NCBI GenBank assembly: GCA_023078555.1
Contig: CM041196.1
Location: 12,108,985 to 12,172,984, forward strand
DNA length: 64,000 nucleotides
Direction: 5' to 3'
Source of the DNA: Ulva prolifera
Lineage: Eukaryota > Chlorophyta > Ulvophyceae > Ulvales > Ulvaceae
The notes under the pieces are model-generated. The model searched no databases and was not told the origin of the DNA. It saw only the letters and a list, made by a program, of their open reading frames with translations. This document shows positions 1,103 to 31,960 of this stretch, one piece after another. Numbering within the stretch: the first letter of the stretch is position 1; every line of letters starts with the position of its first letter. The position numbers were made by a program, and so were the translations under genes.

Positions 1103-1843
1103 TTAGGCCGCGCAAAGCCAACTAAGATGATCTATTATCGCCGACACCCGAGACATCAGGACAACGTTGCATGCCACAGCTTCCTTGCTGCCGAGTGTGT
1201 CTGCCGCAGGCACATGCATGAGCACCCGGTGTTCGCCCGGTCCAAAGCTGTAGCTCAGCATCTCACTGGCTGCAAGCACAGCACTCGGCTTCAGCGGCAA
1301 CTGAATGTGCATCGAAGTCAGCATCGTCCGGAACTTGTCGACAGGGTCCTCCTCGAGCAGGACAGTCACAGTTGGCATGAAGGGCACATTTTCATGCATG
1401 CGGTCGCCGACACTGTCCCATGCATCCCCGATTGCGTAGCGGATCTCTCTGCTTGGGTGCCCATTTGTATTGTTTACGGGATACTGAAGTGGCGCCAGTG
1501 CTTCAGCCATCAGTGCGGGCAACTTTTCAGCCAAGATGTTGTCAATGACATGGCCATGCTCACGCGCAAACCCCCTCCGCGTGAGAAAGTCCTTCATGTG
1601 CACCTTCAAAGCCTCTTCCATCGCCCCCCTCACCGAGCCAGCCGCCTGTCGCTTGAATGACTGTATCTCCCCCGGCGACAGCCGTGACGTCGCATGGGTG
1701 GTGATGTATGGCTCCTTCCGAGCCAGCACCAGCCGTGACCATGCTTTGGCCGGAGCCAATTGCTGGCTCCTGCTCGCATGTCCCGTCCGTCCTGCACAAC
1801 ACTGGGTCATGAATGTGACGCCCTGACCACTGCAATCGGTCAC
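1103..1843 (-). CDS. Coding-like exon downstream of helicase A, unknown
   Basis: Open frame of 246 codons with balanced, globular composition, so probably real coding sequence. The apparent start is not a convincing ATG start and may be an exon edge. It contains a helical stretch (EEALKVHMKDFLTRRGF) and ends near a segment (VLMHVPAADTLGSKE) that faintly resembles the region after motif IV in PIF1-type helicases. That resemblance is too weak for a domain call. It lies 0.5 kb downstream of the helicase exons on the same strand and would be the last exon or gene of element A. No counterpart survives in copy B, which stops before this point. Confidence 0.4.
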   Translation of the reverse strand: MTDCSGQGVTFMTQCCAGRTGHASRSQQLAPAKAWSRLVLARKEPYITTHATSRLSPGEIQSFKRQAAGSVRGAMEEALKVHMKDFLTRRGFAREHGHVIDNILAEKLPALMAEALAPLQYPVNNTNGHPSREIRYAIGDAWDSVGDRMHENVPFMPTVTVLLEEDPVDKFRTMLTSMHIQLPLKPSAVLAASEMLSYSFGPGEHRVLMHVPAADTLGSKEAVACNVVLMSRVSAIIDHLSWLCAA

Positions 1844-1993
1844 TGCACAACTTCACCTGTTACATACACACGCCATTGCAACAGTCACCCAAGATGATGC
1901 ACATTCAAAGGCAGACTTGAAGAAGTAGTTGCTTTTGCGGTCGCATGTCACCTCCACGACGCGCTCCGTCGGGTTGCCGTGAACATGACCCTT

Positions 1994-2260
1994 CTAGAAT
2001 CCAGGAGCGGGGAGCGCTTCTCCCTCAGGTGCCCAAGGAAGCTGGGATGCGTCCCGGTATTCCTGCCGCCGCCAGACGTGGTTGTAGAATATCTTCTCAG
2101 TCTCTGCGAACGTCGCAACGGCGATGATGCAGAACGGCAAGACAGGGTAACCCACGGGTGCCGACAACGGGTATCCCTGTCGCCGCACCCAGACCAGGAA
2201 CCAGCCGGGACTGTTTAGTGACTCCACACGCATGAACAGCAGGTCCATGCAGTCTCCAGA
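1994..2260 (-). CDS. Coding-like exon between helicase A and the terminal exon
   Basis: Open minus-strand frame of about 89 codons with ordinary amino-acid use (segments such as FCIIAVATFAETEKIFYNHV and WRRQEYRDASQLPW). It sits between the helicase segment and the 1.1-1.8 kb exon on the same strand, so it may be a further exon of the helicase gene. No domain is recognised and no counterpart is seen in copy B. Confidence 0.35.
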   Translation of the reverse strand, partial: SGDCMDLLFMRVESLNSPGWFLVWVRRQGYPLSAPVGYPVLPFCIIAVATFAETEKIFYNHVWRRQEYRDASQLPWAPEGEALPAPGF

Positions 2261-2305
2261 GATCTCGCCACTTGGCCTGCATGGCAAAGCATATCAAGCA
2301 CTGCA

Positions 2306-2833
2306 CTAAAAGACAACCGCGTCAACAACATCAAACATGCCGCTGATGTAGCATGGCATGTGACTGCGGCAGCACTGCCCAAAGATGTATGTGACCAACA
2401 CGACGGGGGCAACGTGACATTGCCAAAAACCATACGATACGGCTACACAAAAGCTACACACTACCACAGACGCCCGCTCTTCGGACTGCAGTGCATGCAG
2501 CCGCGTAATGCCATTCATTCGAGCGAAGGACCCAGACCGATACAGTTGGCACGGCAACATCAACCGGCACCCGATGCCACCAAGAGAACCGCACCCAGTG
2601 CAATGTAGCTTGTGCATCATGCCGAGCAGACGATGGTTACCATGCGCGACAATCACAAGCACCTTGGCGCCTTGCAGAATCGGCAAGTCCCAGATACACT
2701 TGCCATGCTTGGCTGGCTGCGCGGGCACGACAACGCCTGCTTCTTCACCCGACGCAATCACCCGTCCAACGCTCCCAGTGGAAACGATCTGCTGAAGATG
2801 GTCCCCGCTGACCATCAGCTTGAGCCCGTCCAA
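2306..2833 (-). CDS. SF1 helicase, motif III/IV segment (element A)
   Basis: The N-terminal third of this frame reads SGDHLQQIVSTGSVGRVI. GDxxQ is motif III of superfamily-1 (PIF1/RecD-like) helicases. About 35 residues on comes CIWDLPILQGAKVLVIVAH then NHR, which fits the strand and arginine of motif IV. Copy B has SGDHLQQIVAPGGIGRIV at the equivalent place. The last 70 or so codons are Cys-rich and probably run past an intron boundary. It belongs directly downstream of the Walker A exon at 2886-3241. Helicases of this class unwind DNA from 5' to 3'; a role in replicating the element is inference. Confidence 0.6.
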   Translation of the reverse strand: MDGLKLMVSGDHLQQIVSTGSVGRVIASGEEAGVVVPAQPAKHGKCIWDLPILQGAKVLVIVAHGNHRLLGMMHKLHCTGCGSLGGIGCRLMLPCQLYRSGSFARMNGITRLHALQSEERASVVVCSFCVAVSYGFWQCHVAPVVLVTYIFGQCCRSHMPCYISGMFDVVDAVVF

Positions 2834-2885
2834 ACCCGTGGTGATCTCATAAGGGGCGTCTTGCTGGAGGCGCGTACGTGCAAGG

Positions 2886-3241
2886 TTAACGGATTTCCGC
2901 GCCGCCGTCCCCGATTTGCTGCTGCAACATGTGGGTCGGCACAGACGTCGCCTCCTCTATGATGGGCATTGGAATCTGGGAGACCTCGTCGGCAGCCTGC
3001 AGGTTGAGGTATATCTGCACTCGCTGCACAAATGAAGCATACCTTAGACGGCGTGCCAGCGTCATGCGCCTTGCATTCGCTGCGTGCTTGCCACTTTGCG
3101 CACACCGTGCCGCCTCCTCTTCTCCGAATGTTATGACTGCTCGCCCGTGTACATTCTCACCCAACACCGTTTTGCCAGAACCGCCGGGGCCGAGCAGAAT
3201 CACGGCATCGTATGCGCCGTTCGCCAACACAACAAAGACTT
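2886..3241 (-). CDS. SF1 helicase, Walker A/B exon (element A)
   Basis: The frame contains GPGGSGKT, a textbook P-loop, preceded by a hydrophobic strand (YDAVILL). About 80 residues later PIIEEATSVP occupies the motif II position, with EE instead of the usual DE. Copy B shows the same order: GADGCGKT then MFAEEVTAMP. Both copies also share an ARC-x2-SG block between the motifs. A likely acceptor (TGCATGCAAG) gives a start near 3241; the frame runs open further upstream without coding character. The protein is recognised as superfamily-1 PIF1/RecD-like from motif order. The gap to the GDHLQQI segment at 2833 looks like a short intron or a frame change. Confidence 0.7.
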
Positions 3242-3337
3242 CTTGCATGCAACTTCTCATAAAAGGAAATACTGAACAGCAGATTGCACGAAACTCCCTG
3301 ACTGTTGTACTTGGCAGCAGTGGCAAATGGATTCCCA

Positions 3338-3682: not shown

Positions 3683-5399
3683 CTACTCCAATTTACGCTG
3701 AACACGCTCTCTCTTCTCGTCAGCAGGCACAAATCGTTGCTGACTGTCGATCAGCTCCCTTAGCTGCCTTGCCCTGCGTTTGTCCCTCCCAACTTCAGCT
3801 GGCCCTGGTGGTGCTATTGGATTCTCCACCGGCGTGGCTTCATTGGAGCCTTCCTCGACTGGCATCAGACGGGGTGGTTGGATACGAGTGTCTTCGTTGG
3901 CTGCTGCTGCAACGCGGGATGGACCTGCAGGATTGCGTGAAGCAGATCGTGTGGATAGTGCTGGTGGGCGGCTGCCCCTGATGCTGACGACAGCAAGTTG
4001 CTGCTCTAGCTGCATCTTTAAGGTCTCCACTTCTGCCAGCTGCTTCCTCAGCTGCTCTTCAGATGGCTCCGCCTGCTCATACATCATCTGCGGAACCCTT
4101 CTCAACGCTGCGCCTTCATCCTCAGTCACCTCCATTGAAGAAGCTGCTTTGCGTGCCTGCCTGCACCTCACCCTGCGGATGACAGCTGATGCTGGGGGTG
4201 ACATGTTCATCAGCTGTGCTGTCATCTTTACCAGCCTGACACGAACCGCATCATCATTCAAAGCCCGCTGCATTGCTTCTGTGTTGTATTCAGACATTGG
4301 CAGTACATCATCCTGGCGGCGGGTGACAGGAGTTTGGGGGGATGCATTTGGCTGGTCACGCTGCGGGGGGCTAACTGTTGATGCAGGGTCATCGGCCGGG
4401 TTGGGATTTGGAACGGGGTGTGGGCTGGGGTCAGCGTTAGAGGGGTTGGGGTGGGGACTGGCGGCTGGGTCAGGGTTGGGATCGGGGGTGGGTGGCTGGT
4501 CCTCCTCCCTGGCATCGTCATCGAGATGGGGCTGGGGATCATCTCTGAGTTGGGAATCTGGGTTGGCATCGGGATTGGGGTTGGGGTTGGGCTGCGGGCT
4601 GGGTACATTGGAACTGTTGGCATGGGGGTCTGTGATGGTGGTACGATCAGGGGTGGTTGGTCGCTTGGGGAATGGGGTTGGTGCGGCAGGCACACGCCGC
4701 CAGATGTCATCTTCAGACAAATCCTCTGGCATGGGATAGTAACTATCAATGGCCCGGAGAATGAGCCATTCTGCATAAGCCTGTACTCCAGCCTGATCCC
4801 ACACTGTTATCCCAGCAGCATTGGTCCCCTGCCCCAAAACACAGCCAAACGCATGAAACGCTAACGGCCATATGCGCATCTCCACGTTGGGGTGCTTCAT
4901 TGCAATCCCCTGAACTCCGTACCGCATGATGTTCAGGAGTGTGCCACGCACAGTGGATATGTTGGCGGTAAACAACAACTGTTCCTCAGTCGGTGCGTCT
5001 GTTGTGTGATCCTTCTCCGTCTGTGCCCACCACCAACACTGGGCCTGCCCGAAGTGATTTGCTGCTACCACAAGCAATGCTTGTGGCAGCATCGCAATCA
5101 ACACTTCCAGCACATCCCTCTTCTCTGTGATGCCATCACAGAGGTGACCCCAAAGCACAGCCAGTGTTGACACTTGGTGCGTCAAACAACTGGGTGCGCT
5201 ATGTGGATACACCATCCGCTCCCAGATGTACAAAAGTTCATCTTGAAGTGATCTCTCATTCAAGGCATGCATAGCTTCCAGGGCTACGCCATCCCATGCC
5301 TTTGCCATGATCTGGTCGTTAAACCATCTCTTCAAGATAGGGCACACCACAGCAATCAGTGAAAATAGATCTTGCATCACTTCAAAGTCAGCCTGCATT
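3683..5399 (-). CDS. Pro-rich coiled-coil protein, terminal exon (element A)
   Basis: Open frame of about 570 codons, the longest in the window. Residues 1-230 are globular and helix-rich, with Trp-rich patches (AQCWWWAQTEK). Residues 240-350 are low complexity with Pro-Asn-Pro-Asp repeats. Residues 380-480 hold a coiled coil (PSEEQLRKQLAEVETLKM). The tail is strongly basic and ends in TAG. A good acceptor (TGTTGTGCTCAG) at 5399, only 110 bp after the GTATGTTCTG donor of the exon at 5508-5855, argues that it is the next exon of that gene. Copy B lacks it. The coiled-coil part recurs at 52.87-53.23 kb, so the sequence is itself repeated. No known family is recognised. Confidence 0.6.
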
Positions 5400-5507
5400 C
5401 TGAGCACAACATTGTATGGTGGACCATCCCATGCGGGTCACCTTCATATAATAATGACTGCCACCACCTGCACTGCACACATCAACATGGGCATGACCAG
5501 AACATAC

Positions 5508-5855
5508 CGCAGGCGTGACAGCCTTGATCGCGGCACGGACATCTGCTGCCAACACCGTCAGATCGTACTTGTATGTGTCAATGTTTATGTTGTGCTGCGA
5601 TGCCTCCACATCACTCAGTGACAGCACTTGGTCATTCGGCAAGGACTCGTGAGCAGACCGTGGGCTAGGTTCCAGGCGCTGCAGTGCTGCGCCGAGATCG
5701 ACAGCAGCCAGCTGCGCAGCATCACCTGCAGCCTCTGCCGTCGGCGCAGCTGTGGGCACTCGCTGTTCTGCAATTGGCGGGGCCTCCTCATCCGAAGAAA
5801 CGGTGATGACTTCCTTAAGGCAAGGCATGGTAACAGGCTCAGTCTTCGCCTTCAC
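5508..5855 (-). CDS. SIM / IDTY-domain exon (element A)
   Basis: The exon opens with a Lys/Glu segment (KAKTEPVTM) and EVITVSSDEEAPP. Hydrophobic V-I-x-V followed by S-S-D-E-E is the classical form of a SUMO-interacting motif. After an Ala-rich linker comes VEASQHNINIDTYKYD and KAVTPA, then a donor (GTATGTTCTG). Copy B (22335-22880) carries AASQHHVDIDTYVYD and MTVRPA with a donor at the identical place, so the domain is conserved. Function unknown; the conserved block is too short to name a fold. Confidence 0.65.
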
Positions 5856-6044
5856 CTTCTCAACGGGTGGCGCGTCCGCTACACTAGTGACTCAAATCGC
5901 TGGATCATCAACAACTGCTTTAATTGCAGTGGTGTCGGACCAGGGTGCCTACAGACCACCACCGCCACTACCAGTGAGCATGTCATGTGACGGTCCAACT
6001 GTACAAGAGCCGACTGCATCGGAACTGCTGCCGCCGCAGGCCAC

Positions 6045-6410
6045 TCAAACGCAGCCACGTGAATCAGACCGCATTGCATCCATTGCAACACTGTCGTCTG
6101 CGTGGGCGACGCTGTCACCAGCGTAGGATCGTGTCGGCACAACCCCGGTGCCGGGTGCTGCGTCACCTGCAACAAAGTCGCGCAACGCTTCTGATGTGTT
6201 GGGCCCGCCACCCACGATCCCTGCCATCACCAGCCCCGAGAAGATAGCTTTGTGACGCGTCAGCAACACCTCTTCAGGGAACGCTGCGTTTGCAAGGCCG
6301 ACGGGAACGCTGCGTTTGCACGGCCGCAGTACAGCGTGGCTCCCGCTGCATATGATGGTGGTGTAGTCACAGATTGGACCGATGCCAAGCAGGTGCGTTT
6401 GCACTGCAAA
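6045..6410 (-). CDS. Helical exon homologous to copy B 24.06-24.8 kb
   Basis: The minus frame shows EEVLLTRHKAIFSGLVMAG followed by TSEALRDFVAGDA. Copy B has DAVLLNHAGDRAAGFLIAA and TTAERLRAHVTG in register. The upstream part, DYTTIICSGSHAVL, aligns with copy B IAIMTACGAGPPDHALYV. Inside the exon a 25-bp sequence (GGGAACGCTGCGTTTGC...) is duplicated head to tail at about 6278-6327, adding residues absent from B. Homology with B ends near 6410, where the foreign cargo begins. Function unknown. Confidence 0.5.
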   Translation of the reverse strand, partial: FAVQTHLLGIGPICDYTTIICSGSHAVLRPCKRSVPVGLANAAFPEEVLLTRHKAIFSGLVMAGIVGGGPNTSEALRDFVAGDAAPGTGVVPTRSYAGDSVAHADDSVAMDAMRSDSRGCV

Positions 6411-6464
6411 TGCATGCATGCATGCTGCTCTCTCCTCATATGCATCGTTTGCTGATGTGTGCAG

Positions 6465-7069
6465 GATTTATATAGACAACCTGGCACAGCCGAGGGACGA
6501 TGCCGCAAACGTGGTGTTTCTGCTAGGGCCCCCGTGCAACAGGGAGTCTGGCCTCATTATCGATTCCATGTCTGTAGCGACAGCGGTCCCCGTTGAGAGA
6601 GAGCATTCGTGCCGTGGGGGTGGAGCCCGCGCACGGTGCGCACAAGGTGTCACTGATGGTGCACAAGGCCCTCATGCGTTTCAACCTGGGTCACCCCGCG
6701 GAGACGCTTGCCCGCGGCATGTGCGCGTCGGCGTGGATGCCCGGGGCCACCCCCGCCTTCCAGCATGACGCCGCCTGCGCCATCGCGGCGCTGAAGTTGC
6801 ACGTCTTGGACGAGGTGCAAGCCATGACACCGCTGCTACGGCAGTACCTGCTGCAGCTGCGGAAGGCGCACGCTCAGGCGACCAACGTTGACGGCATGCC
6901 ACATGCGGAGGTGCTGCGGTGGTGCCCGCACATTTTTGCCCTCGACCCGCAAGAGAGTCCCTGCCGGAAGATCGGCGTGAAGAATGTGGATGCCAACGGG
7001 CGCGAGATGATGCGTGCCACGTCTGTGATCATGCCGTGGAGGATGCGCATGGACGTGTGCGGCCTTTGA
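6465..7069 (+). CDS. Plus-strand exon, unknown protein (cargo of A)
   Basis: A strong acceptor (GCTGATGTGTGCAG) precedes this exon, and a matching intron upstream starts at a GTGCGTTTGC donor near 6391 and contains TGCATGCATGCATG. The exon first reads NVVFLLGPPCNRESGLIID, then changes frame near 6590 at a C run and continues as HKALMRFNLGHPAETLARG and HAEVLRWCPHIFALDPQE to a TGA at 7067. GC-rich third positions and even composition support real coding. No family is recognised. It is opposite in strand to the element backbone, as expected for inserted cargo. Confidence 0.5.
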
Positions 7070-7349
7070 GCGTCGCTGAGGTACCACTTTGTCGTCCTCC
7101 ACGGCCAGTAACGCATGAGCGGACTGCTGTACCGCTTGCTGTACAGCGCGTATGTTCTCCCCGCGGATGCATGTGTCTAGGACGCGAGGTCCCTTGTCTC
7201 TGAGCGGAGTACCTTGGAAAGCTTGACAGTGGAAGCGTGGGCTTACGGCCAGGCACGAGGACCTATGTGGCGACAACAAACAGAGATTGGATGCGTGTAC
7301 GCAGGACAAGATGGAAGAAGTGCTCAATAGAAGCGCCCCATCCGAACCA

Positions 7350-7510
7350 GTGCGAACTGTGTCGGACCCAGCAAGCGCGCAGTATAAATACTGCTTGTGA
7401 TGCGCCCAGGACTACCCCTTGCTATGGCTGGCCTCGCCAAGATGCTGCGCACCCTACGCAGTCATCTGATGGAATCCCCAATAAGTGAGGGATCCCCAGT
7501 GACTAGTGGT
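7350..7510 (+). repeat. TATA-bearing dispersed repeat, copy 1
   Basis: This segment matches 51840-51990 on the same strand through interrupted blocks: TATAAATA (7383), CCCAGGACTA, GGCTGGCC and GGAATCCCCAATAA. The TATAAATA box is conserved in both. It may be a fragment of a transposon promoter. The DNA from 7510 to 7860 shows nothing recognisable. Confidence 0.6.
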
Positions 7511-7859
7511 GACACGCTGAAATGCGTGAGTGTTTGACAGTGTTCTGTGCGCAGTGCGTGGTGCATGAGGATCTCTGAGGGAGGGAGCTGCGCACGATGC
7601 TGCCCCATGGGCGGGCGTGGCGTGGTGCGAGCCAGAGATCGACACGCTGAAAGCTGGATCTCATCCCGAGATTGTGCGCGATAATGTGCAGCATCTTGAC
7701 ATAGCCGCCACAGTGTGTAACTAGAGGGGCGCCGGGACTGAGCTGTCCGTGCCTGTGTACATTTTGACGTGCACAGCTGAGTCTGACGGCGCGCAAGCGC
7801 ACCGCGTCTCCGCGACGCGTGCGACTGCCCGATCTGGCGGATGGTTGTAACTTGTCGCA

Positions 7860-8200
7860 GAGGCGGCCTCATAAGCTGAGGTCACTTGTGTTCGCGTGCA
7901 TGATTAGGTGCACGACCTTTTATAAGCTGACTTTGTGAAATGCAATAGAGTGTGTGACCATACAAGTGTGTGCGGCGCAAGCGCCACGTGTTAGTATCTT
8001 GTGGGATTCTGACTTGGTGATCTTCGTGAAGCACGAGGATCTTAATATATACAAGTGTGCCATGGCATGTGTCATGACAGGCACCTGTGTAGGAATGTAC
8101 ATCATGACACAATGCATGAGTTTCATGCATTGTGACCACATGCCTGCGCCAGCGTGAGGTGCCATCTCACGACAGCATGACTGCGTGATTGACTCTGGCC
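7860..8200 (+). repeat. Dispersed repeat ending in a GTGAG/CTCAC hairpin
   Basis: The end of this segment, GCCTGCGCCAGCGTGAGGTG then CCATCTCACGACAGC, recurs at 59200-59230 and in a diverged form at 52675-52705. In all three a short inverted repeat (GTGAG...CTCAC here) is kept. It lies just before the gene at 8299. Without clear ends the element type is open. Confidence 0.5.
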
Positions 8201-8298
8201 AAAGACATGTTGTGCCGGCAGGCGCACGATCGTGGTGTCGTTCATTCGAGTCGGCTGCGGATCTGCTGGCGGTGTCAGAGCGGGTCGTGGACGTCGAG

Positions 8299-9152
8299 AT
8301 GAATCACAACTTTGTGACATTCTTCGCGCCGGACCGGGAGGCAGCTGTTGTGGACTCGGACAAGTTAACGATGCGGGGCTTCGGAAACGAGGCAGAGGGC
8401 GAGAGTGTGTACGTCTGGGACGGAGGCGACTGCGCGCTGAGGCTCCACCCAACATTGATCACCACCACGACCAAGGATGGTGCGAAGGCGATGTATGATC
8501 GGGTCAAGGGCCGCTTGGACTACTATAGATTCATCAACGCAGCGCATGCGTCTGCTCAGGCAAAGGTGCAGATGCGAGCAGAGCTGAAGGCTGCAGAGTT
8601 GCGCTGTCTCAATCGCGAGCAGGAGGCGGCTGCTGTGCAGGCTGCACCAGTCGTGTTGGCTGCTTCGTTCGGTGTGTCCACGCCCGGTGCCGGCTGCCCG
8701 TATGTGTGCATGCATGCATGTGTACTAAGCTGTATCCCGTCCAGCATCGCCCGTGGCATGTTCACTAGACCTGAGGGAGGGGATGTGTGTGCAGGCACGA
8801 GGATGAGGTGGGGCAGCAGATGGTGCAGCGGCTGGAGGGGTTCGTGTACATCAGCTGGGACGCGGTCCGCCTGCAGGGGGGGGGGAGCAGTATCTGCTGA
8901 CCTCGGGGTTGGGCCCAAACTATCCGAGGGGTTCTGTGTGCGCCGTGGCGTGCTTTGAGCGTGCGCCGTGCGCAAAGGTCGTGCGTGACGCAGTAGCATC
9001 CTTCAAGGTGCTCACAAAGGATGCACATGAACGCGGCCTTGGGTGGGACAAAGTACATTACAGTGTCGGCGGCCTTGTAGGCCCCCCCGGCGAGCAACAG
9101 CACATGCTCAATGTGGTGCGGCGGGTGGCGCAGCGGTTTGTCGAGAAGCATG
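8299..9152 (+). CDS. Two-exon plus-strand gene, unknown (cargo of A)
   Basis: An ATG at 8299 opens MNHNFVTFFAPDREAAVVD. The first exon runs to 8699, with a donor GTATGTGTGCATGCATG. A 95-bp intron ends in GTGTGTGCAG at 8794. The second exon reads HEDEVGQQMVQRLEGFVYI and later GWDKVHYSVGGLVGPPGEQ to VEKHG, before a GTGAGAG donor at 9153, so more exons are expected. A run of ten G at 8876-8885 shifts the frame inside exon 2; either a real mutation or a homopolymer sequencing error. Exon 1 ends in an Arg/Glu/Ala-rich helix. No family recognised. Confidence 0.55.
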
Positions 9153-10120
9153 GTGAGAGATGTTTGTGCCGATTAGTGGATGTGCTGTAGATGTGCACGC
9201 GTGTTGCTGCAGCTGCCTCTCCTACCGAAAGTCGTGTGGCTTTGGGGGTTATGTTGCTTGACCGGGGCATCCCTGTCACAGCGGCGAAACGGAGGTGTTG
9301 TCAGAGGTCGAGATCAGTTCGCTGTGGCACGGCTAAAAGTGAAGATAACAGACGAAAGAGGAATCCCGAGATCAAAATCAGCACGTGTACACCGCTTAAG
9401 CTGCAAGGGGCACAAGTCGAAGGGGAGGTCCAAGCCTTTTAACTTGTTGAGATAGCGCAGCGTATCACGCGATGCAGTGCATATGCCATGGAGCGCTACC
9501 TATCGAGACGCATATCAATGAATACATGTAAGTCCCGCTGTGACCTGTCCTAGCAACGGCTCGCTAGCACGACGGCATCTAGAGCTGCGATGTACACAAC
9601 TGCAGCATCGTGTCGCCTAGCACACATTACTGGGACACGCAGACGTCCACCGTACGCATATGTGATCAGATACACTGCATATGTTCCTGCAACGGCTGCC
9701 GAACCCCCCTCCGGTGAGCCAGGCTGTGCAGTGTATGACTCTGCTCGGCATATCAACACACAGCCGCTGGGCCTGTAATGTACGTTACATATTTACTTCA
9801 GCATACAACGTATGATTAGAGCAATGCTCGCCAGCGCACATATAGGCTGCTGCGCCTAGACCAGTGATGCGGCGTCGTGTCGCATACCAAATGTACCATC
9901 GACAAGCAGCGACCAGCCAAAAAACGTATACGAGACAGAGCATGAGTTCCTTCGATGGCACGCCGGTACGCTTGTGTACCAGGCCGTCCCGCGCGTGCCT
10001 GAGTGCAGCATTGTGACGAACGACTTGGTAGCTGAACGAAGTCGCCAATGCTAAGCAGCTGTCTAGCAGACTTTCGTGTTGATGATCACACACTGACATA
10101 CATAGGAGAGCAGGCTGCTT
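9153..10120. other. No gene assigned
   Basis: Open frames here are short and lack coding character on both strands. A minus-strand frame from 9785 upward encodes one hydrophobic stretch (LCLVYVFWLVAACRWY), but it lies past a donor (GTATAGCAAGC) of the exon at 10125-10440 and is more likely intron. Nothing else is recognised. Confidence 0.4.
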
Positions 10121-13355: not shown

Positions 13356-13359
13356 TAAA

Positions 13360-14043: not shown

Positions 14044-14141
14044 GAATGGGTAGGACACCGTGGTAGTGTCACAGAATTCAACGAATAGGCAATGTACCGT
14101 ACGGTCATGGATGTCTTGCCTCACGAACACCGCATCACACA

Positions 14142-15697: not shown

Positions 15698-15772
15698 CTG
15701 CATCACCTCGCCCCAGTCAGAAGCGTGGAATCAGGCCCTTTGCCCCCACAGACATTCAACACAACACCACAC

Positions 15773-17440: not shown

Positions 17441-17469
17441 GTAAGGCACATTTGTCGCAAGAGACACAC

Positions 17470-18856: not shown

Positions 18857-18894
<38 letters not shown>

Positions 18895-22140: not shown

Positions 22141-22334
22141 CTGCATGGCATGCCCACAGTGACAGCCAGGCGATGACAGATCAGGGCGCGGGTGACAGCC
22201 TGAAACAAGATGTACCGATATGTACGTGCATGGAGTTGACGTTGCTACAGGCAGTAACTCCAAGGCGCCAGATCGCACATAGTGGACAAGGCACACACAG
22301 GAGCAAGTGCGAGTCTGACGGAGTGGGTGCACAC

Positions 22335-22880
22335 CGCCGGGCGGACCGTCATGATCGCGGCATACAAGTCTGGTGGGAGGCCGGCACGATCGTACACGTA
22401 CGTGTCGATGTCGACGTGGTGCTGGGACGCCGCCAGGTTGCTGAGAGGCTCGCCCGGGACATCAGGCTCCGCAGGCACGGCTGCTGGCTGCACAGCAGCG
22501 GCGAGCGCAGCACCCATCAGTCCGGCGGCGAGGTCCATCGCGCCCTCAACGGCGGGTTGTCCGCCGAGTGGTGGCACAGGCTGGGCGTTGGGGACAGCCG
22601 CAGGGTGCGCGACATAGGGAGCCTGAGCATGAGCAGGCACTGGGGCCAGCGCAGCGGCGGGCGGCGCAGCGGCGTTGGCGGGCCCCCGCACACCCATGAC
22701 CGCGGCGGCGAGATTCATCGCGCCCCCGGCAGGCAGTCCGCCCGGCTGCGGCGCGGGCTGGGAGCCAGGCAGAGCAAGCACGGGTTGACCCTGTTGGGCA
22801 CCGGGAGCAGCGGCAGGTGCAGCGACGCCACCCCCACCGGCGGGGTCATGGTCGAGCAGCGGTGCGGGCGGGACATGCAT
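22335..22880 (-). CDS. IDTY-domain exon with Ala/Pro-rich linker (element B)
   Basis: An ATG at 22880 begins MHVPPAPLLDHDPAGGGG. Two repeats of the kind G-(A/G)-MNLAA-x-MG / GAMDLAAGLMG lie in a Pro/Ala linker, then AASQHHVDIDTYVYD and IMTVRPA close the exon at a GTGTGCACC donor. The IDTY block is the part shared with A (ASQHNINIDTYKYD). The linker is compositionally biased and probably disordered. Function unknown. Confidence 0.55.
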
Positions 22881-22894
22881 GTTATAAGCAAGGA

Positions 22895-23400
22895 CCTATG
22901 CGCAGCATTCATCAAGCTAGCTAGTGGGCTGCAGAGCCGTTACCTGTGGAGCACTCAGGTCGTACGTCGGCAATGCACAGATCAGGGGATGTACTGTAAT
23001 GCAGTGAGGCAATACAGGAACCACGTAAGACTGTAAGAGAATGGTTACAGTAGACTTGGAGGCACATGACTATATGCCACCGATCAGTCATGTCTACAAC
23101 GGTCATAATCACAGTGACCGCACACAATCCTCACATGGATTGTGCGCTTCGTGTGGCTTGCTGCGTGGTGTGCGTTTCCCCTGCTTCTTGCTTGCGGTGC
23201 TACCTGCCTCGCTTGCTTTGTCCTTGTAACACATGGATTGTGCTGGATTATGCTCATGCATATGATCATGCATATGTCCTAACATAACAGGAGTTGGGCC
23301 CGTGGCCACCACACTCATGTGCGTACTTGCACGTCATGCATTGTGTCCCAGGATGGACCTCATTTATGACAATGCACAGCAGCGGCCGGGGACTGCCCGG
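22895..23400. other. Intergenic or intronic gap with a dispersed repeat
   Basis: No coding frame. It contains the repeat at 23150-23240 and several TGCATATGATCATGCAT-like palindromic stretches near 23250. CTGTAACCATTCTCTT on the minus strand near 23033 also occurs near 33328. Confidence 0.4.
23150..23240 (+). repeat. Dispersed short repeat, copy 1
   Basis: GTGCGTTTCCCCTGCTTCTT, GCGGTGCTACCTGCCTCGC and TTGTCCTTGTAACACATG recur in inverted orientation at 58435-58530. A shorter match is at 58100-58130, and a diverged copy lies inside the A-specific intron at 18750-18830. No coding capacity; a small non-autonomous element is the likeliest reading. Confidence 0.7.
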
Positions 23401-23405
23401 TGACA

Positions 23406-24053
23406 TCAGACGCCGGAGGCACGCCCGGAGGGGCTTCGGGGGGGGGCAAGGACGACTTCCGGATCAGCGTCGGAGTAATCACTGGATGATATCAGTATCG
23501 GCGGCCCGCCGTAGAGACGTCCAGGCACGCCACGAATTGCATCCCCGGCCCCCTCCTGCTTGATCACCACAGGTAGGGTCTGTGCGGTGCCGGGGGGCTG
23601 CGCGTCCTCCGGGGGCGCTTGGCCTGCGCCTCCGAGGGGCTGTGCTGCCTCCGGGGGGGCCCGCACCACTGCGCCCCGGGGGTACCCAGCCGCAGGGGGA
23701 GCTTGGGAAGCCGTCTCCGAGGCTGCCGCATGGGAGGCCTGCGCTCCTGCGCCAAGACGCGCTTCTCCGGGATGGGCCTCGGCTGCCGGGGAGGCGTGGC
23801 CTGTCGCGCCGAGGGGACGAGCTGCCGCAGCGGGGGCCCGGCTGGCCGTCGCGGGGACGGTCGAGTCAAGTGGACGCGCTGCTGGGGGGGCCTGGAATGC
23901 TCGCCGAGGGGCCGGGACCGCCCCGCCGTCCCCACTCGCGAGTGCAAACTGCGTCGACGCTCCCGCGCCGTCACCTCTCGGTCCAGCGACGGAGCATTCG
24001 CCATGGGCGGCAGCACCGGCGCGCTCGTCCGGGAACAGGCGCGACGGCGTGAT
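23406..24053 (-). CDS. Disordered Pro/Ala exon with SUMO-like motifs (element B)
   Basis: An open frame, strongly Ala/Pro/Gly-rich, ends with LPVVIKQEGAGDAIRG and PPILISSSDYSDADPEVVL before TGA. IKQE fits the psi-K-x-E sumoylation consensus, and ILISSSDYSDAD has the hydrophobic-then-acidic form of a SUMO-interacting motif. Element A has EVITVSSDEEAPP in the same relative place. The rest is low complexity and may be partly out of frame. No fold expected. Confidence 0.45.
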   Translation of the reverse strand: MTPSRLFPDERAGAAAHGECSVAGPRGDGAGASTQFALASGDGGAVPAPRRAFQAPPAARPLDSTVPATASRAPAAAARPLGATGHASPAAEAHPGEARLGAGAQASHAAASETASQAPPAAGYPRGAVVRAPPEAAQPLGGAGQAPPEDAQPPGTAQTLPVVIKQEGAGDAIRGVPGRLYGGPPILISSSDYSDADPEVVLAPPRSPSGRASGV

Positions 24054-24059
24054 GCCTAC

Positions 24060-24800
24060 GCCCGGGGCAATCCCGTGACGTGCGCCCGTAGACGCTCGGC
24101 CGTCGTCACGTCGGAGTTTGTGACGGCAGCTATGAGAAAGCCGGCGGCGCGGTCGCCGGCGTGGTTCAGGAGGACAGCGTCAGGCAGCTTCCGTTTGATC
24201 TTCTTGCAGGCCTCCTTTGCGCCGGCGACGTAGAGGGCGTGATCTGGCGGGCCGGCGCCACACGCTGTCATGATCGCGATGGCAGTGCCGCGAATACATG
24301 TCCACAGGGGTTTGGGCAGGTCTCCGCTGACGGTCGCTGCCATCAGGGCACACGTCATGAGTGCAGTGCAGTAGCCGACTGCTTCTGGCAAATGAACACC
24401 AGCATGCTCTTGATGGGCGATGCTTGCAGCAAACAGGTGTGTCGGGATCAGCAGCGTCGGCTGCGTCTGTTCTTGCACCAGCCCCGGCGCCAGGCTGTCG
24501 CCGCACTGCCGGAGGAGTGCGAGTGTCAGCACATGCACGGGGCCCATTGGGGAGGAGGTGAACAACGCCGGCAGCCGAGCGAGAAGCAGCGCGATAGAGT
24601 CCCGTGCCACTTGCACGGCGGCTGCGTGCATTGGAGTGTCACTGCCGCTGGCCAGCTTGCGACTCAAGTTCCCGCTCTTCATGACCACGGTGCCGAAGAC
24701 CGTGTCACGATGTTTTCCGATGCGGACGCCACCGAACCAGGCCCAATCCGCGAGGTCTTCAGAGGCCCCCTTCTTGCTGGCACGCATGCCGTGCATGCGT
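24060..24800 (-). CDS. Conserved helical exon (element B)
   Basis: The frame has even composition: KKGASEDLADWAWFGGVRIG, SDTPMHAAAVQVARDSIALL, FAASIAHQEHAGVHLPEAVG, ACKKIKRKLPDAVLLNHAGD. It is rich in predicted helices with a gate of small residues (YCTALMTCALMAATVSGD) that could be a buried helix rather than a membrane segment. It ends near a GTAGGC donor at 24059. The last 60 residues match the A exon at 6045-6410. No family is recognised. A probable acceptor (GCGTGCCAG) sets the 5' edge near 24780. Confidence 0.55.
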
Positions 24801-24997
24801 GCACACACAACATGCACCAGGTCGCACTCACAGCCCACTGTGGTAACACTGATCGACACAATTTGGGTGCTCAGGTAAGGCGACAGGCCTGATCAACTTT
24901 TCCGCGCGATCGTCCACACAACTGTGCCCGGGTCATAGTCAGGGGCGGACGCGCTGAGGTTTTGGGGCATGCCTGTTGGAATTTCCTTGAGGGCCAC

Positions 24998-25673
24998 TCA
25001 AGGACCCTCAACGCGATGGTACAGGTCGTGGCCAGGGACCTGGATCGAGTCAGGGGATGCAAAGTTGCAGCGCCCATGACCCCGCTTGAATGGCTGCAAC
25101 TCTTCAGCCGCGTCGACCATGGCGTTGCGCGTCTGGTACTCATCCTGGAGCCACTCCTGCCCGTGTGCTTGGAGTGCACTGGCGACCGCCAACAGAAATC
25201 CATCCGCGATCGGGACGACGTCGGGCTGCTGCCCGCCCTCTGCATGTAGATGGTTCGTGCGCGCTCGGGGTCGGTGAGATAGATGCCGCAGGGGTGCATG
25301 TAGTCTTTGCGTAGAGTCGATTCGCATGGAGCCGCCAGACACGGCGCCACTCGCCAGACATGTACATTGCAGTGCTGTCGGACGGCTGGTCAGCGGGCGC
25401 ACCGTCCATCGGAGCAGCGCCATCGTCATCCTGAAGCACACGCTGTGCCTTGCCCTTGCGCTTCCCGGCCGCAGCCTGCGCCTTCCGCTTGTGGTTATGG
25501 CTGATGAGCTGCCGGAAGCGCCGCTCAACGTCAGTGCATGTACCGGTGCCGATCACGGTGATGTGCCTGCGGCTGCGCAGCTCGGCATACGCTTCCGCAT
25601 GCTCGGCCGGCACTCCGTGCATGAGCGACAGCCGCGGAAGGACGGCGCGCGCCGGCTTTGTCATCATGCGGCC
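24998..25673 (-). CDS. Exon(s) downstream of the Cys/His array (element B)
   Basis: First frame: MMTKPARAVLPRLSLMHGVP, ELRSRRHITVIGTGTCTDVE, then a Lys/Arg-rich stretch and SGEWRRVWRLHANRLYAK. The frame changes at about 25320 (DYMHPCGIYLTDPERARTIY) and again near 25240 (FLLAVASALQAHGQEWLQDE, NAMVDAAEELQPFKRG). Smooth composition across the switches shows coding sequence damaged by small indels or unseen short introns. The IGTGTCTDVERRF segment hints at a GIY-YIG end but lacks its partner motif, so no call is made. Confidence 0.45.
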
Positions 25674-25906
25674 TGCATGCGCTGTGACATCTGAGTGTTG
25701 CAGCTTCGGACACGCCAGCTGCCCTCCCCAGCATCGCTCAAAGGGCGCATAGGGTCCGCGAGGTGGCCACATGCACGCTGATCGGCAAGCTTGCACGTGG
25801 GTCCCCCGCGCAGGCTCGGGCAAGCAGGTACGGGAGCAGTACCAACGGACACACATGCACAGGCACATGCAGTGAAACAAATGCACCGGCACGGCTGCGG
25901 CCACAC

Positions 25907-26520
25907 ATCTTTCCCGTACAGCAGCCCGGTCACGAGCGCGTGGTTCACATCAATCATCGAGAGGCCCCCGGCGCCCCTGCCGCGCGCCGCGCATGTGAGG
26001 CACACTGACTGACCGACGAAGCCCGCCGGGCACGTGTACTGATCGCAGATGGCACACGTCCTGAATGCTGGAGCTAGCGGCAGCGGCGTGCCGGTTGCTG
26101 TGATCTCCCGAGGTGCCTGGCCGTCGTCGCACAGCTTTCTGACCGCCTCCTCGTCGAAGCTGTCCTCCTCGTCGATCGCGGACAGGTCGCGACCGAGCAC
26201 GCGCGCGGCCCATTTGGTGACCCCATCTCCAAGGTGGCCCTCCAGCTGCGCACACGCGTCCTGGCCGTGCACGAGCACCGACTGCCGCCCCCATTCGGGG
26301 TTCCAGGCACCCTCCTTGCCCGCGCCATCGGGACCTGCATCAGCGGCATCTGCAGCGACAGCTGCAGCCACGCGCGCCGCTTCCACCGCTTCGTCGCTCG
26401 TCGCCGGCAGGCGGCGGCCCTGGCACGTACGGAAGTACCTGCTGAAACAGGCGAGTGGCTCCCACTGACCGTGGATGGAGCACCAGCGAATCTTGCGCCC
26501 CGTCTTGAGGTCGATGCAAC
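25907..26520 (-). CDS. Cys/His module 3 (element B)
   Basis: The acceptor GCGAATGCAG starts an exon AYCCIDLKTGRKIRWCSIHG then QWEPLACFSRYFRTCQGR. This aligns residue by residue with module 2 (CSTCGQGLPLQLFRPGRASC). A linker with an acidic helix (FDEEAVRKLCDDGQAP) leads to CAICDQYTCPAGFVGQSVCL then TC, and DVNHALVTGLLYGKD before a GTGTGGCC donor. The first half has lost some Cys ligands; the second keeps two CxxC pairs. Probably zinc-binding. Confidence 0.55.
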
Positions 26521-26569
26521 AATACGCCTGCATTCGCAACACCACCTGTCACCGTGGTGAATCACCACA

Positions 26570-27078
26570 CGGGTGAGGGTGTCATATGGCACCCTCACGG
26601 GGGGCGCGCTGTCTATGCAGGTGTTCCCGGACTCGACAGCACACGTAGCGATGAGCACCATGGATAGGTTGCTGGCATCCATGTGGCCTGGGGGGCATAC
26701 CGGCATGTGAGTCAGACACAATGGAAGCACTCGCTGCGCAGCCTCCGGACCTGCGCCCTTCCGCGCAGCCTCTACCGTGCAGGTCTCGGCCTTGCAGACG
26801 CCGGCCTCCCGGTCCATGACAAGCCTCAGCGCGTTCTCGGGCGTCACCCACTGTGCGCCTGCGGGGGCATCAGGGCGCTCTGTTCGCGGCGCACGCTGGC
26901 GCCGATATACCGCGTTCCTGTCGACGCAGCGGCTGCATGACGCGCGCCCGGGCCGGAACAATTGCAGCGGCAAGCCTTGCCCGCACGTGCTGCACGGGCG
27001 GATGTACATGAGCTTGCCGGTGTGCTTGCCCGCGCTGTCCACGGCGGCCACGAGTACGAACTGCAGCCCCCGCACATC
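26570..27078 (-). CDS. Cys/His module 2 (element B)
   Basis: Preceded by the acceptor GCTGGCCTGCAG at 27079. It reads VRGLQFVLVAAVDSAGKHTG, then CSTCGQGLPLQLFRPGRASC followed by SRC, then TPENALRLVMDREAGVCKAE, LPLCLTHMPVCPPGH and DASNLSMVLIATC. The C-C...C-C unit is the zinc-ribbon type often seen beside HNH nucleases (C-x2-C-x-(K/Q)-x-PL-x2-F). The second half (C-x4-C...LC-x2-H...N) resembles an HNH/zinc fold, but the catalytic His-His-Asn set is not certain. Coding appears clean. Confidence 0.6.
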
Positions 27079-27227
27079 CTGCAGGCCAGCGACGGCGCTC
27101 AAGCCGGCTCTGACTCTGGAATGCCAAACTCCAACCCGCAGGATCAACATGAGGTCCACACCAATCACACACATGTGTACATACCACAAGGCAGCAATGG
27201 CGCGCAACAGACACGCTGGACACGCAC

Positions 27228-28608
27228 ATCAAAGCACTTCTTGCACAGCATGGCCCCGTCGCGGTCCTTGAGCTTGCCGTCGCCCTGGCAGCCGATGCGC
27301 ACGCAGCGGTGGAGATGGCCCTGCGCTCCTTGTCGTAGAACGCGTAGGCGACGTACGGCGAGTTCAGGGACTCGCCGGGCCGGACCGAGAGGTTGGCATC
27401 GGAGCGCTGCTTGGCCGCACGCCGGTCGAGAATGAAGGACTGGTCGGCATCCTTTCCAGACTCCACCTCCTGTGGAGAGACGGGCAGGTGGCCCGGGACC
27501 GGCTGCCCTCGGCCAGGGTTCTTCCGCTTGTTGTCCACCACATAACACCGCTTGCACACCCCTCCGTCACCGTCGACTCCCGCGCCGTGCCGGAACTCCC
27601 GCACGTCGCGGAGCGCGTGACACTTGGTGCAGCGGCGCATGCCCTCCTCTGTACCCCGAATGCGAAAGTCCCCCTTGATGTGCTAAGGGCACAGCCGGAG
27701 CGCATGGTCCGTGCCGAGCTTCACACGGTCGGGACAGCCGATCACGAGGCACATGTGCGACTCGTTCAGCTCTTCCCGCACGGAGGGCTCGAGATTGCAG
27801 GCTCGCGCCGGAATGATGGGCAGCGTGCCATGCAATACATTTTCAAGGTCCTCAAGGAGGGTGTCCCCACTGTCGTGCGCAAGGTGCAGAAGGTACAGCT
27901 CGAACTCGGCATGCGCCTTGGGCACCCGGCTGTAGCTCGGATACGGCACCGCAGACTTGCCGGTCTCGGGGTGTATCGTGAGGCTGTGCTGATGGAATGT
28001 GCGCGACTGTATCACGGCCAGGGCGGCTCGGTGGCTGACGTGCACCTTGACCACCTTGCCTCCGGCGGACACGGTGCGGCCGACACCCCCCCTCGGCTCG
28101 TCCGGGTCCATCGGGACCTCCGAAGCCGAGTCTGCCACAGCTGACGGTCCGTCGTCACGGGCTGCGTCGCGTCCGAGTGCATCTGCCGGAGCGCCTTGCG
28201 GGCCCGCCGCCGCCAGCTCCATCGCCAATTCGAGCTCCATGGCGTCGGCAGGGACAGCCGCGATCTCGGTGGCGGCCTCGATGACATCGCTGAGCTCTCT
28301 GTCTGCATGCGCGACTGCCTCGGCTTCCTCCTCAGCCGCGCTGCCGTCCATGTCGATGACATCCTCAGCAGCCTCCTCCTCCTCCTCCTCGTCCTCATCG
28401 TCAACCTCGTCGGCGTCGAATGGACCGCGTGGGTAGTCCTCCACGATGTCGTTCATCGTTGCGCGCAGTGGCGCAGCCTTCTCCTGAAGCGCCCTCAGGC
28501 GCCGCCTGTCGATGAACATGACCTTCTCGGCGCCCTCAAGCCAGGCGTCCTTGGCGGCGACCGCTCCCACCACGACGCCGGTGAAGTCGGTCATCACAGC
28601 GCGGTGCT
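27228..28608 (-). CDS. Acidic exon plus Cys/His module 1 (element B)
   Basis: The exon starts after CCTGTGTGCAG at 28609: AAKDAWLEGAEKVMFIDRRR, IVEDYPRGPFDADEVDDEDE, a long acidic stretch, then a globular part (VSHRAALAVIQSRTFHQHSL, FELYLLHLAHDSGDTLLEDL). It then gives CLVIGCPDRVKLGTDHALRL-CP, a TAG at 27683, and H, preserving an LC-x2-H spacing across the stop. Next come CTKCHALRDVREF, GGVCKRC and, after a one-base frame change near 27300, CVRIGCQGDGKLKDRDGAML-CKKC. A donor (GTGCGTGTCC) ends it at 27228. The conserved ligand spacing shows that the stop and shift are recent damage. Confidence 0.6.
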
Positions 28609-29063: not shown

Positions 29064-29417
29064 ACCTTCCGGGAGGGCAGCCAGTCGCTCCTCCGACAAC
29101 GGCTTCTTCTGAAGCCATCTACCCGGGGCACGGGACACTCGCCTGAAGAGCCGCAGGATCACCGTCGCGATCTGCGTGCCGGAGCCGTCGTCGTGGCCAC
29201 CGACGTGGTCCGCAAGGCGCTTGCTGGCCGCGGTCACTCGCGCCTGGTGCACCTGCCCCTGCTGACTGGCCTGGAACTCCAAGAAGCATGCGAGCTCTCG
29301 CTCCGCCTCGTTGCCAGCGACCGGCGCCGGGCCGGAGTTGACCGCGCCGGCGGCGACACGCTGGATTATTCGAGCCGTCTCCATGTCTTGCAAGTTACCC
29401 GTCACGCCGGCGTGCTG
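29064..29417 (-). CDS. LADH exon of element B
   Basis: Bounded by the acceptor GCCTCTGCAG and a GTGTGTCC donor. It reads QHAGVTGNLQDMETARIIQR, NEAERELACFLEFQASQQG, SKRLADHVGGHDDGSGTQ, VSRAPGRWLQKKPLSEERL. It starts at the same codon as the A exon (AQAHITGDARGMEHAR) and is 5 bp longer. The block is uninterrupted here. It contains a helix-turn-like segment, but I cannot name a domain. Confidence 0.65.
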
Positions 29418-29497
29418 CTGCAGAGGCAAACGCGCGCAATCAGACGCCATACGCGGGCGGGCGGTGGGACCGGAGCACAGATGGGCTGGCGACGTAC

Positions 29498-29810
29498 CAT
29501 GCCTCCGAGCGTGGTCGCGGCCGCCCGGTTGGAGAAGTAGTGCACCATCGCGGCAGAGTTGCTGTTCTGCACCCAAGCGCCCACGTGCCGCATGACGGTC
29601 TCGTCCGGGGCGCGATCCGAGGTGATGTGCATCAGCACCTGCCGCAAGACCATCGAGGACCGCAGCGCCCGGACGCCGACCTTGACGCCGCGGCCATGCG
29701 GACCGACGTCCGCGAGAACGCCCGCCATCGCGACCAACCACGAGATCCGCGTCCCCGGCACATTGATGTAGGGCAGCATCAGTAGGTCGTCCTGAGCACA
29801 GAAGACGTAC
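29498..29810 (-). CDS. Tyrosine recombinase C-terminal catalytic exon, element B
   Basis: The acceptor CGTGTTGCAG at 29811 and donor GTACGTCG at 29497 frame an open exon: LMLPYINVPGTRISWLVAMA, VRALRSSMVLRQVLMHITSD, VMRHVGAWVQNSNSAAMVHY, FSNRAAATTLGGM. It shows the late Trp (GAW) and the candidate nucleophile Tyr (VHYF). Identity with A is highest in this block, as expected for a catalytic core. No frame break is seen. Confidence 0.7.
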
Positions 29811-30330: not shown

Positions 30331-30575
30331 CACTCCTCCGTCCCAGGCTTGCACGGCAGCATCTCCCCGAAGGCGAGGGCGTCGAGGGACGCCCTGTCGA
30401 AGACGCCCATCGCCAGGCCAAGCTCGACCACGGCATTTCCGACGAGCGGCAGGCCCCGCCTCGCCGGCAGGCCCCGCCTCGCCGGCAGGCCCGTGGGGTC
30501 GAGCGCGAGGACGTTGACGCCGTACGCGTTGGGCGCCTTGGTGACCACGTGGCGCGTGACGAGAGCGTAGCCGAT
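30331..30575 (-). CDS. Tyrosine recombinase middle exon, element B
   Basis: The exon reads IGYALVTRHVVTKAPNAYGV, VLALDPTG, then LPARRGLPARRGLP from an 18-bp duplication, and VVELGLAMGVFDRASLDALA. It ends at a GTGCGCCGC donor, matching A in phase. The acceptor position reads CCGCAA where A has TGCAG, so the AG of the splice site is changed. Without a nearby substitute, normal splicing of this copy would fail. Confidence 0.65.
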
Positions 30576-30702
30576 TTGCGGAGGCAACGGCGCGGGTGAG
30601 CGCAGAGGACGCAGGCACGGCGGGCGCAGGCACAGCGGGCGGGTCCGGCGCAAGCGGCCCGAAGGGCGGGTTGCAGTCGGGTCCGGAGCGGGAGCCGCGC
30701 AC

Positions 30703-31029
30703 CGTCGTGTCCTTCTGGGCCATGTTCTTCTCAAAGGCCTGCACCGCCTCGCCGTCAAGCACCAGGTTCTTCTGCAGGATCACGTCCTGCCAGCGCCAGA
30801 ACTGGAAGAACGTGCTGCGGACGCCCACGATGGCGGTCAGCGCGAACACGGCGCGCGCCTGGAGCATTGCGAACCCGCCGACGTACATGCCCTCCACCGT
30901 CCGACGGATCTGGCCCTCCGTCAGGGGCGTGGCCTTACGCGTCCCGCCGAGCCCCGACGACTTGATGTACATCGCGACGCCCTTCACGTCGCTCTTGTAG
31001 CGCTGGAAGGGGCTCGCAGCCTCCACCAC
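30703..31029 (-). CDS. Tyrosine recombinase box-I exon, element B
   Basis: The acceptor CCTGTCCAG starts VVEAASPFQRYKSDVKGVAM, then TPLTEGQIRRTVEGMYVGGF and VFALTAIVGVRSTFFQFWRW-QDV, closing at a GTGCGCGG donor. Its length of 327 bp equals the summed A exons (171 + 156) exactly. The Arg in VGVR is the box-I catalytic arginine candidate. Uninterrupted. Confidence 0.75.
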
Positions 31030-31261
31030 CTGGACAGGCGGCGGGATGAGAACGGTCGCATGCGCCGTGAGACTGCAGGCCCCCGCCCACAGCGGCTGAC
31101 AGGCCAGCGGCGCGGCAGGGCGCCCCCTCCGAGCACAACTGCGGCCCGGGCCCCTCCGCGACGCCGCGGACGACAGGCCGAACCTTCGTCGGCCACAGGA
31201 GCAAACCCTCAGCAACGCGGCCGCCCGTGAGCGGCGCGGCGACGCCGGACGGGGCACGAAC

Positions 31262-31811
31262 CTCGTTCGTCGCCGCATAGTACTCGCCCATGAGGCTCCC
31301 CACCGCGCCCTTGATACCATCCAGGGAGCGCTTGCTGCCGATGACCTTGCTGTATAGCAGCACGTGGAGGACCTCGACGAACCGGTCCTTCGTCATGGTC
31401 CTCCACGACTTGACGGCCTCGAACATGTCGACGACGAGGCTCTTCTGCCCGTCGCCGGACGTCACCTCCCGCAGCATGGCGTCGGTTTCCTCGCCGCGGA
31501 GGGACATGACTGCGTAGTGGGCGCGGGTGAAACGCAGCGCGCCGCGCTCGCCAACCTCGAGGCCGGGCAGCGTGCGGTGGAAGCGCGACAGCAGGAGGCG
31601 CCACTCCGCGGGGTCCGGGAGGACGCAGTCGGGCTTCTCGGTGGCGTTCAGCGCTGCGCAAACCGCGCGCGACGGCTCGCCCATCCGGCTGACCTCCTCC
31701 GCCGCGCGGTTCAGGCACGCGCGGGCTTTCTCCATGCGCTCCCTCGTCAGGCCGGCGCCCTCCAGCGCTCTGAAGGCCTCCTCGCCCGCCGGGTTCAACT
31801 CGTACCTCCGC
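31262..31811 (-). CDS. Tyrosine recombinase N-terminal exon, element B
   Basis: Begins after the acceptor GCCGCTCGCAG: RRYELNPAGEEAFRALEGAG, CLNRAAEEVSRMGEPSRAV, PAEWRLLLSRFHRTLPGLEV, RFTRAHYAVMSLRGEETDAM, KSWRTMTKDRFVEVLHVLLY, SKRSLDGIKGAVGSL, and ends at a GTTCGTGCC donor. 550 bp, one open frame. It matches the two A exons throughout except for a divergent 12-residue stretch at the A intron site. The helix-rich region should form the core-binding domain. Confidence 0.7.
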
Positions 31812-31879
31812 CTGCGAGCGGCGACATGTCGGGTCACACGCGCTGCTGTGCTCGAGCAGACGCCCCGTGTACGGGGACG

Positions 31880-31960
31880 CTGTCACGTGGGTGGGCCCTC
31901 GGGGGCCACACGGCTGCGTGTACTGACGGCGCATGCATGCGGTGCGGTACGCTCCGGGCG
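31880..31960 (-). repeat. Leader sequence of element B, repeated at 34.03 kb
   Basis: On the minus strand ATGCGCC-(G/A)-(T/G)-CAGTACACGC then GAGGGCCCAC lies just upstream of the first recombinase exon. The same sequence occurs at 34030-34100 in the same orientation. It could encode a short N-terminal leader (MRRQYTQPCGPRGPTHV here, MRQQYTRPPRAHVAY there). Confidence 0.55.

Follow-up and report, generated by a model that had tools for sequence, protein, structure and literature searches.

We analyzed a 64,000-nt stretch of DNA from the chlorophyte Ulva prolifera (GenBank assembly GCA_023078555.1, contig CM041196.1, positions 12,108,985 to 12,172,984, forward strand), hereafter the window, which has a G+C content of 57.5% and contains spliced genes. 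Two related gene sets lie here on the minus strand, A (19.3–2.7 kb) and B (31.8–21.6 kb), each with a large recombinase-like gene, a small exon and a helicase-like gene that encodes a P-loop; statements on copies refer to this window only. Self-tblastn among window open reading frames (ORFs) of at least 50 codons yielded collinear homologous blocks in identical order in A and B (Table 1), which bears out an earlier sequence-only reading that had described two copies with the same order and strand. The recognised exons of the large gene span 31811–27683 in B and 19254–15402 in A, and the P-loop gene extends from 22146 to 21640 in B and from 3248 to about 2600 in A. At the nucleotide level the matches between A and B are short and exonic (self-blastn, E 1e-5): introns and intergenic DNA gave no mutual blastn match at this threshold, and the flanks do not align beyond a single 24-base match (E 0.71). 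Because introns and flanks fail to align, a recent segmental duplication of one locus, against which the earlier reading was to be checked, was rejected; A and B are anciently diverged copies of a collinear, spliced gene pair. A profile of the large gene revealed no convincing additional copy within the window, where its other matches had E 0.4 or worse.

Introns with mostly GT–AG borders, at four positions common to A and B, indicate that the genes are spliced. All five B introns examined open with GT, and all but one (30702–30576, with no AG anywhere) close with AG; the six A introns likewise open with GT, and five have AG at the assigned boundary, with an AG 3 bases upstream in the sixth. 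Two introns occur in A but not in B; for the fifth intron of B no boundaries were assigned in A. Over 462 aligned codons of the recombinase-like gene the copies are 56% identical, with identities of 0.66/0.71/0.50 at the three codon positions, and the same codons gave a synonymous divergence (dS) of 1.17 and a non-synonymous divergence (dN) of 0.39, hence a dN/dS of about 0.33. In each of four other conserved A/B segments the proportion of synonymous differences (pS) exceeds that of non-synonymous ones (pN). The G+C content at third codon positions (GC3) of the recombinase-like gene is 0.82 in A and 0.92 in B. From the shared intron positions and the dN/dS of about 0.33 it follows that A and B were once real genes under selection: both copies show past purifying selection on collinear spliced genes. 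A first exon of the B gene upstream of 31811 was not found. Related tandem repeats of 56–57 bp (15768–15984 and 17222–17420) lie between exons of the recombinase-like gene of A.

By eye, the large protein reads RKATPLTEGQI, then ALTAIVGVRSTFFQFWRWQDV, a conserved lysine, RALRSS, VGAW and MVHYF. The candidate residues in the numbering of spliced B are R253, K304, R420xxR423, W452 and Y464, and their counterparts are invariant between A and B; in A an in-frame stop falls between the two arginines of RxxR. Compared with the tyrosine recombinase set R-K-HxxR-H/W-Y, this by-eye motif has arginine at the histidine position, and the order R, K, RxxR, W, Y suggests a tyrosine recombinase layout in which the histidine is replaced. 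The spacings R–K, K–R and R–Y are 51, 119 and 41; in the available part of PMC12506042, the recombinase of the Starship Sanctuary has R260, K308, R427 and Y458 and thus spacings of 48, 119 and 31. When a box-I position-specific scoring matrix (PSSM) was built from eight known recombinases, the best position in both the A and the B protein was the candidate box I.

A number of results weigh against this assignment. The box-I scores are low (3.3 for B and 5.3 for A, versus 21.1–34.6 for the known recombinases in leave-one-out scoring), such scores are reached by 1047 of 2000 shuffles for B and by 439 of 2000 for A, and among 72,731 window positions values of up to 12.7 occur at unrelated sites. 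The searches listed no recombinase family in Pfam (up to E 5 or 10; PF00589, DUF3435 and DUF3504 included), NCBIfam (up to E 10), PHROGs (up to E 1) or PDB (up to E 10), limits to be read with the HMMER filters in mind, which discard most matches above about E 0.1. A local hhalign alignment to a P2-type integrase profile scored below the best of 100 shuffles, and an AlphaFold model of one exon, with a predicted local distance difference test score (pLDDT) of 39, was unusable. The Crypton-like tyrosine recombinase of the sequence-only reading is supported only by a motif layout seen by eye, and the profile tests run for it were negative. On balance we regard the large protein as a putative and, more likely than not, a genuine tyrosine recombinase.

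Superfamily 1 (SF1) helicases of the Pif1/RecD-like type are marked by Walker A, a DE box and a motif III of the form GDxxQ. The P-loop gene keeps GxxGxGKT, EE and SGDHLQQ in both copies, with EE in the motif II box where an SF1 helicase has DE; A and B are 37% identical here (pS 0.68, pN 0.41). Beyond motif III, A runs on with IWDLP...NHRLL, the later motifs not being recognised, and B ends. The strongest profile matches, all weak, point elsewhere: Pfam AAA_28 (E 0.0064), a PDB dynein (E 0.013) and a PHROG thymidylate kinase (E 0.014), followed by Pfam AAA_16 (E 0.02). SF1 families rank lower, with AAA_30 at E 0.028 (below the cut-off) and PDB PIF1 at E 0.58, so that no significant SF1 helicase match was obtained in Pfam, PDB or PHROGs. 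hhalign to T4 Dda covered Walker A only, with 1 of 100 shuffles scoring higher, and the AlphaFold model (pLDDT 44) was unusable. The ranking counts against a helicase, but given motif III an SF1-like helicase would be the most economical reading. The earlier claim of an SF1 helicase, like that of a tyrosine recombinase, is weaker than stated: the protein has Walker A and an SF1-like motif III but no significant profile match; searches against tyrosine recombinase and PIF1/RecD models, which that reading had named as its check, gave no significant family match for either protein.

A fragment within A on the plus strand (6578–7066) aligns to the helicase-like gene around motif II, here with the canonical DE (GC3 0.84). 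It scores 14.0 bits versus 6.1 for the best shuffle (0 of 200 reaching it), and five other ORF pairs rank higher in the ORF-wide comparison; it may be a third, inverted helicase-like relative inside A, or a chance match. Exon-like ORFs at 6367–9190 (+), likewise within A, perhaps belong to a third element in inverted orientation.

A and B are both damaged and degenerate. The lesions of A comprise two in-frame TAG codons in the large gene and a frameshift in the helicase-like gene; in B the intron 30702–30576 has no acceptor and the helicase-like frame stops at a TAG after motif III. All four stops are TAG, namely the two in-frame stops of A and the B frame ends at 21637–21639 and 27683–27685 (−), and we considered TAG recoding for this reason. 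A Harbinger-type transposon with imperfect terminal inverted repeats (TIRs) of 24 nt (12933–12956 and 15378–15401) has inserted into the acidic exon of A. Its DDE_Tnp_4 match reached 28.7 bits in one Pfam scan (cut-off 24.8) and 22.2, below the cut-off, in another, and the flanks show no clear 3-bp target duplication. A proline-rich ORF of 584 codons, which has a partial relative of about 50% identity at 52855–53208 (−), lies between the small exon and the helicase-like gene of A. Since these two features separate the parts of A, its span is not the size of an element; the 10–18 kb proposed earlier was inflated in this way, and the start then given, 1103, had been set by an ORF (1106–1852) for which no counterpart was found in B.

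The small exon has a conserved core (B 22427–22335, A 5600–5508) of 55% identity. Upstream of the helicase-like gene in both copies there is what we take to be a SUMO-interaction-like stretch, VITVSSDEE in A and ILISSSDYSD in B. The conserved exons of unassigned function in the sequence-only reading lie inside the genes of the three collinear blocks; between the middles of A (12.9–6 kb) and B (27.7–23 kb) all matches are weak (E about 0.002 or worse for each query, with no correction for the number of queries), and this holds for the Cys-rich ORFs of B (27682–25667) and its ORFs at 24892–23409. CxxC enrichment in the Cys-rich ORFs of B is weak, as 27, 40 and 226 of 500 shuffles match the observed numbers.

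Table 1. Features of gene sets A and B in the window
Feature	Set	Position	Strand	Remarks
Block 1, recombinase-like gene	A/B	A 19260–15492; B 31813–28418	−	self-tblastn
Block 2, small exon	A/B	A 5618–5499; B 22445–22326	−	self-tblastn
Block 3, P-loop gene	A/B	A 3248–2756; B 22146–21643	−	self-tblastn
Exon, first recognised	B	31262–31811	−	N-terminal region; homologous to A 18495–19254; GT donor
Exon 2	B	30703–31029	−	PLTEGQI and box-I-like GVRSTFFQFWRWQDV; motif by eye
Exon 3	B	30331–30575	−	candidate catalytic-Lys region; preceding intron 30702–30576 without AG
Exon 4	B	29498–29810	−	box-II-like region and MVHYF (candidate catalytic Tyr)
Exon 5	B	29066–29417	−	C-terminal extension; 43% identical to A 16358–16014
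Exon 6	B	27683–28608	−	acidic C-terminal region, TAG end; first part 36% identical to A 15662–15402
Exon 1	A	18917–19254	−	recombinase-like gene
Exon 2	A	18495–18665	−	upstream intron only in A
Exon 3	A	18156–18326	−	
Exon 4	A	17863–18018	−	box-I-like GLRTPFFQYWRWQDV; upstream intron only in A
Exon 5	A	17466–17696	−	
Exon 6	A	16660–16987	−	box-II-like region and MVHYF; in-frame TAG 16825–16827
Exon 7	A	16014–16358	−	C-terminal extension; in-frame TAG 16191–16193
Exon 8	A	15402–15662	−	acidic region, interrupted by Harbinger-type insertion
Helicase-like gene	B	21640–22146	−	GADGCGKT, EE, SGDHLQQ; TAG just after motif III
Helicase-like gene	A	2600–3248	−	GPGGSGKT, EE, SGDHLQQ, then KCIWDLPIL...NHRLL; frameshift near 2899
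Possible third helicase-like fragment	A	6578–7066	+	LHVLDEVQAM; profile E 0.0067
Exon preceding P-loop gene	B	22248–22895	−	core 22335–22427
Exon with VITVSSDEE	A	5391–5891	−	core 5508–5600
Overlapping ORFs, only in B	B	25667–27682	−	CxxC pairs; possible Zn-binding protein
ORFs 24059–24892 and 23409–24179, only in B	B	23409–24892	−	the latter with ILISSSDYSD
Harbinger-type DNA transposon	A	12933–15401	−	in acidic exon; TIRs, DDE_Tnp_4
584-codon ORF	A	3686–5437	−	proline-rich repeats; between small exon and helicase-like gene

Other repeats and genes are found in the neighbourhood. Just upstream of B, inverted repeats of about 80% identity lie more than 7 kb apart (32722–34028 and 41476–42439); they could be the long inverted termini of one element, or else two copies. 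A 153-bp tandem repeat of 3.7 copies (38463–39023) adjoins a tRNA-Ala (agc) gene (39171–39242), a 56-bp direct repeat of 98% identity occurs at 35154–35209 and 39102–39157, and a retrotransposon gag domain was identified at 49393–50001 (−) (Pfam E 3.2e-07).

The reading that we tentatively prefer, to which we give a little less than an even chance, is that A and B represent two degenerate copies, diverged long ago and arranged head to tail, of one kind of intron-bearing DNA element with a recombinase and a helicase. Such an element would encode a protein of about 900 residues, in the layout of the large eukaryotic tyrosine recombinases, and an SF1 (Pif1/RecD-like) helicase. The recombinase would excise the element as a circle and integrate it at a short core site, and the helicase would open or replicate this DNA intermediate; integration of the circle at such a site could explain why the copies lie side by side. 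Enzyme activity, mobility, circle formation and site choice are properties that we infer for it. Speaking against this element, no termini, target site duplication (TSD) or further complete copies were found within the window, and the two genes could be independent of each other. That A and B represent a new superfamily of intron-rich eukaryotic elements, combining a highly diverged tyrosine recombinase with a Pif1-like helicase of their own and coming to lie in tandem via site-specific integration, is conceivable, though we rate it as less likely than not.

The likeliest alternative, in our view still rather unlikely, is that a pair of host genes, whether derived from a recombinase or unrelated nuclear genes, was duplicated in tandem long ago and later decayed among transposons, without ever having moved as a unit. 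The tandem order on one strand, the many introns and the past purifying selection fit this, as do the missing termini and TSD and the presence of just two complete sets in the window; introns, intergenic DNA and flanks that do not align, the possible helicase-like fragment in inverted orientation and the other mobile-element parts nearby speak against it. Improbable in our estimation is that the element is mobile but its large protein a transposase of a kind not recognised here, or another DNA-binding protein, which resembles recombinases in its motifs by chance. The family and PDB searches that list no recombinase, together with PSSM and hhalign results no better than shuffles, are what would be expected in that case, but the candidate residues R, K, RxxR, W and Y are conserved in both copies, in an order and with spacings like those of recombinases (cf. 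the available part of PMC12506042). That A and B are what is left of an endogenous DNA virus, polinton-like or other, with both a tyrosine recombinase and an SF1 helicase is very improbable: polinton-like viruses and their relatives have tyrosine recombinases, some of them SF1 helicases, and several sit in the genomes of algae or protists (as far as the parts of the sources used here go), but Pfam searches of 38 window stretches (a part of the 176 ORFs of at least 120 aa) matched no capsid protein, packaging ATPase or polymerase, the genes have several introns of spliceosomal type and a GC3 of 0.82–0.92, and scans of viral contig collections revealed no relative.

These viral contig scans gave 56, 64, 11 and 62 pattern matches with none confirmed, and the scans of prokaryotic genome contigs gave 95 and 50, again with none confirmed. 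tblastn found nothing in phages and, with one exon as query, nothing in plasmids. One contig from a DIRS-type motif scan was not used, its long ORFs being phage-like by eye. Cryptons, the known recombinase transposons of eukaryotes, have little apart from the recombinase. If the element proposed here is real, the recombinase–helicase unit would form a spliced, non-viral counterpart to Starships and to polinton-like viruses and would be relevant to the way in which recombinase elements become larger, which hinges on mobility and on the recombinase fold in intact copies.

The searches made of the open-licence PMC literature, which excludes subscription papers and preprints, turned up no description of a spliced transposon with recombinase and helicase. 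Academ, Inton, Enton and Helitron-type transposons each bring a helicase, as A and B would. They differ in being DDE or rolling-circle elements, and no Rep or Helitron_like_N match was found at A and B. The helicases concerned are RecQ in Academ and SNF2 in Inton and Enton (PMC3627910) and PIF1 in Helitron-type elements (PMC10799480), according to the available parts of these papers. Polinton-like viruses and relatives carry tyrosine recombinases and some SF1 helicases, PIF1-like in Tlr1, as far as the available parts of PMC4642659, PMC12721341 and PMC12220804 go. The likeness would be to the tyrosine recombinases of some of these and Tlr1-like elements and to the SF1 helicases of some; the difference is that the genes of A and B are spliced and the scanned stretches hold no capsid, ATPase or polymerase. 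Cryptons (CryptonF, S, A and I; Kojima and Jurka 2011) are DNA elements with a tyrosine recombinase, some with a C48 peptidase or DDE domain, and the word helicase does not occur in the main text of that source as available (PMC3212892). A and B would resemble them as DNA elements with a recombinase gene, some Cryptons also having an extra domain or protein. They differ in that the recombinase-like protein matched no recombinase family in Pfam, that its gene has a minimum of five introns (B) or six (A) and that no short terminal direct repeats (4–6 bp in Cryptons) were found within the window. An active Crypton has reportedly been found in a study of structural mutation in Chlamydomonas. Unlike Starships, the fungal elements that have a DUF3435 captain as their first gene and a large cargo, A and B have no DUF3435 match in Pfam, their cargo and ends are not shown and nothing points to a fungal origin; what they would have in common with Starships is a large recombinase with diverged catalytic residues and a similar spacing of the candidate residues.

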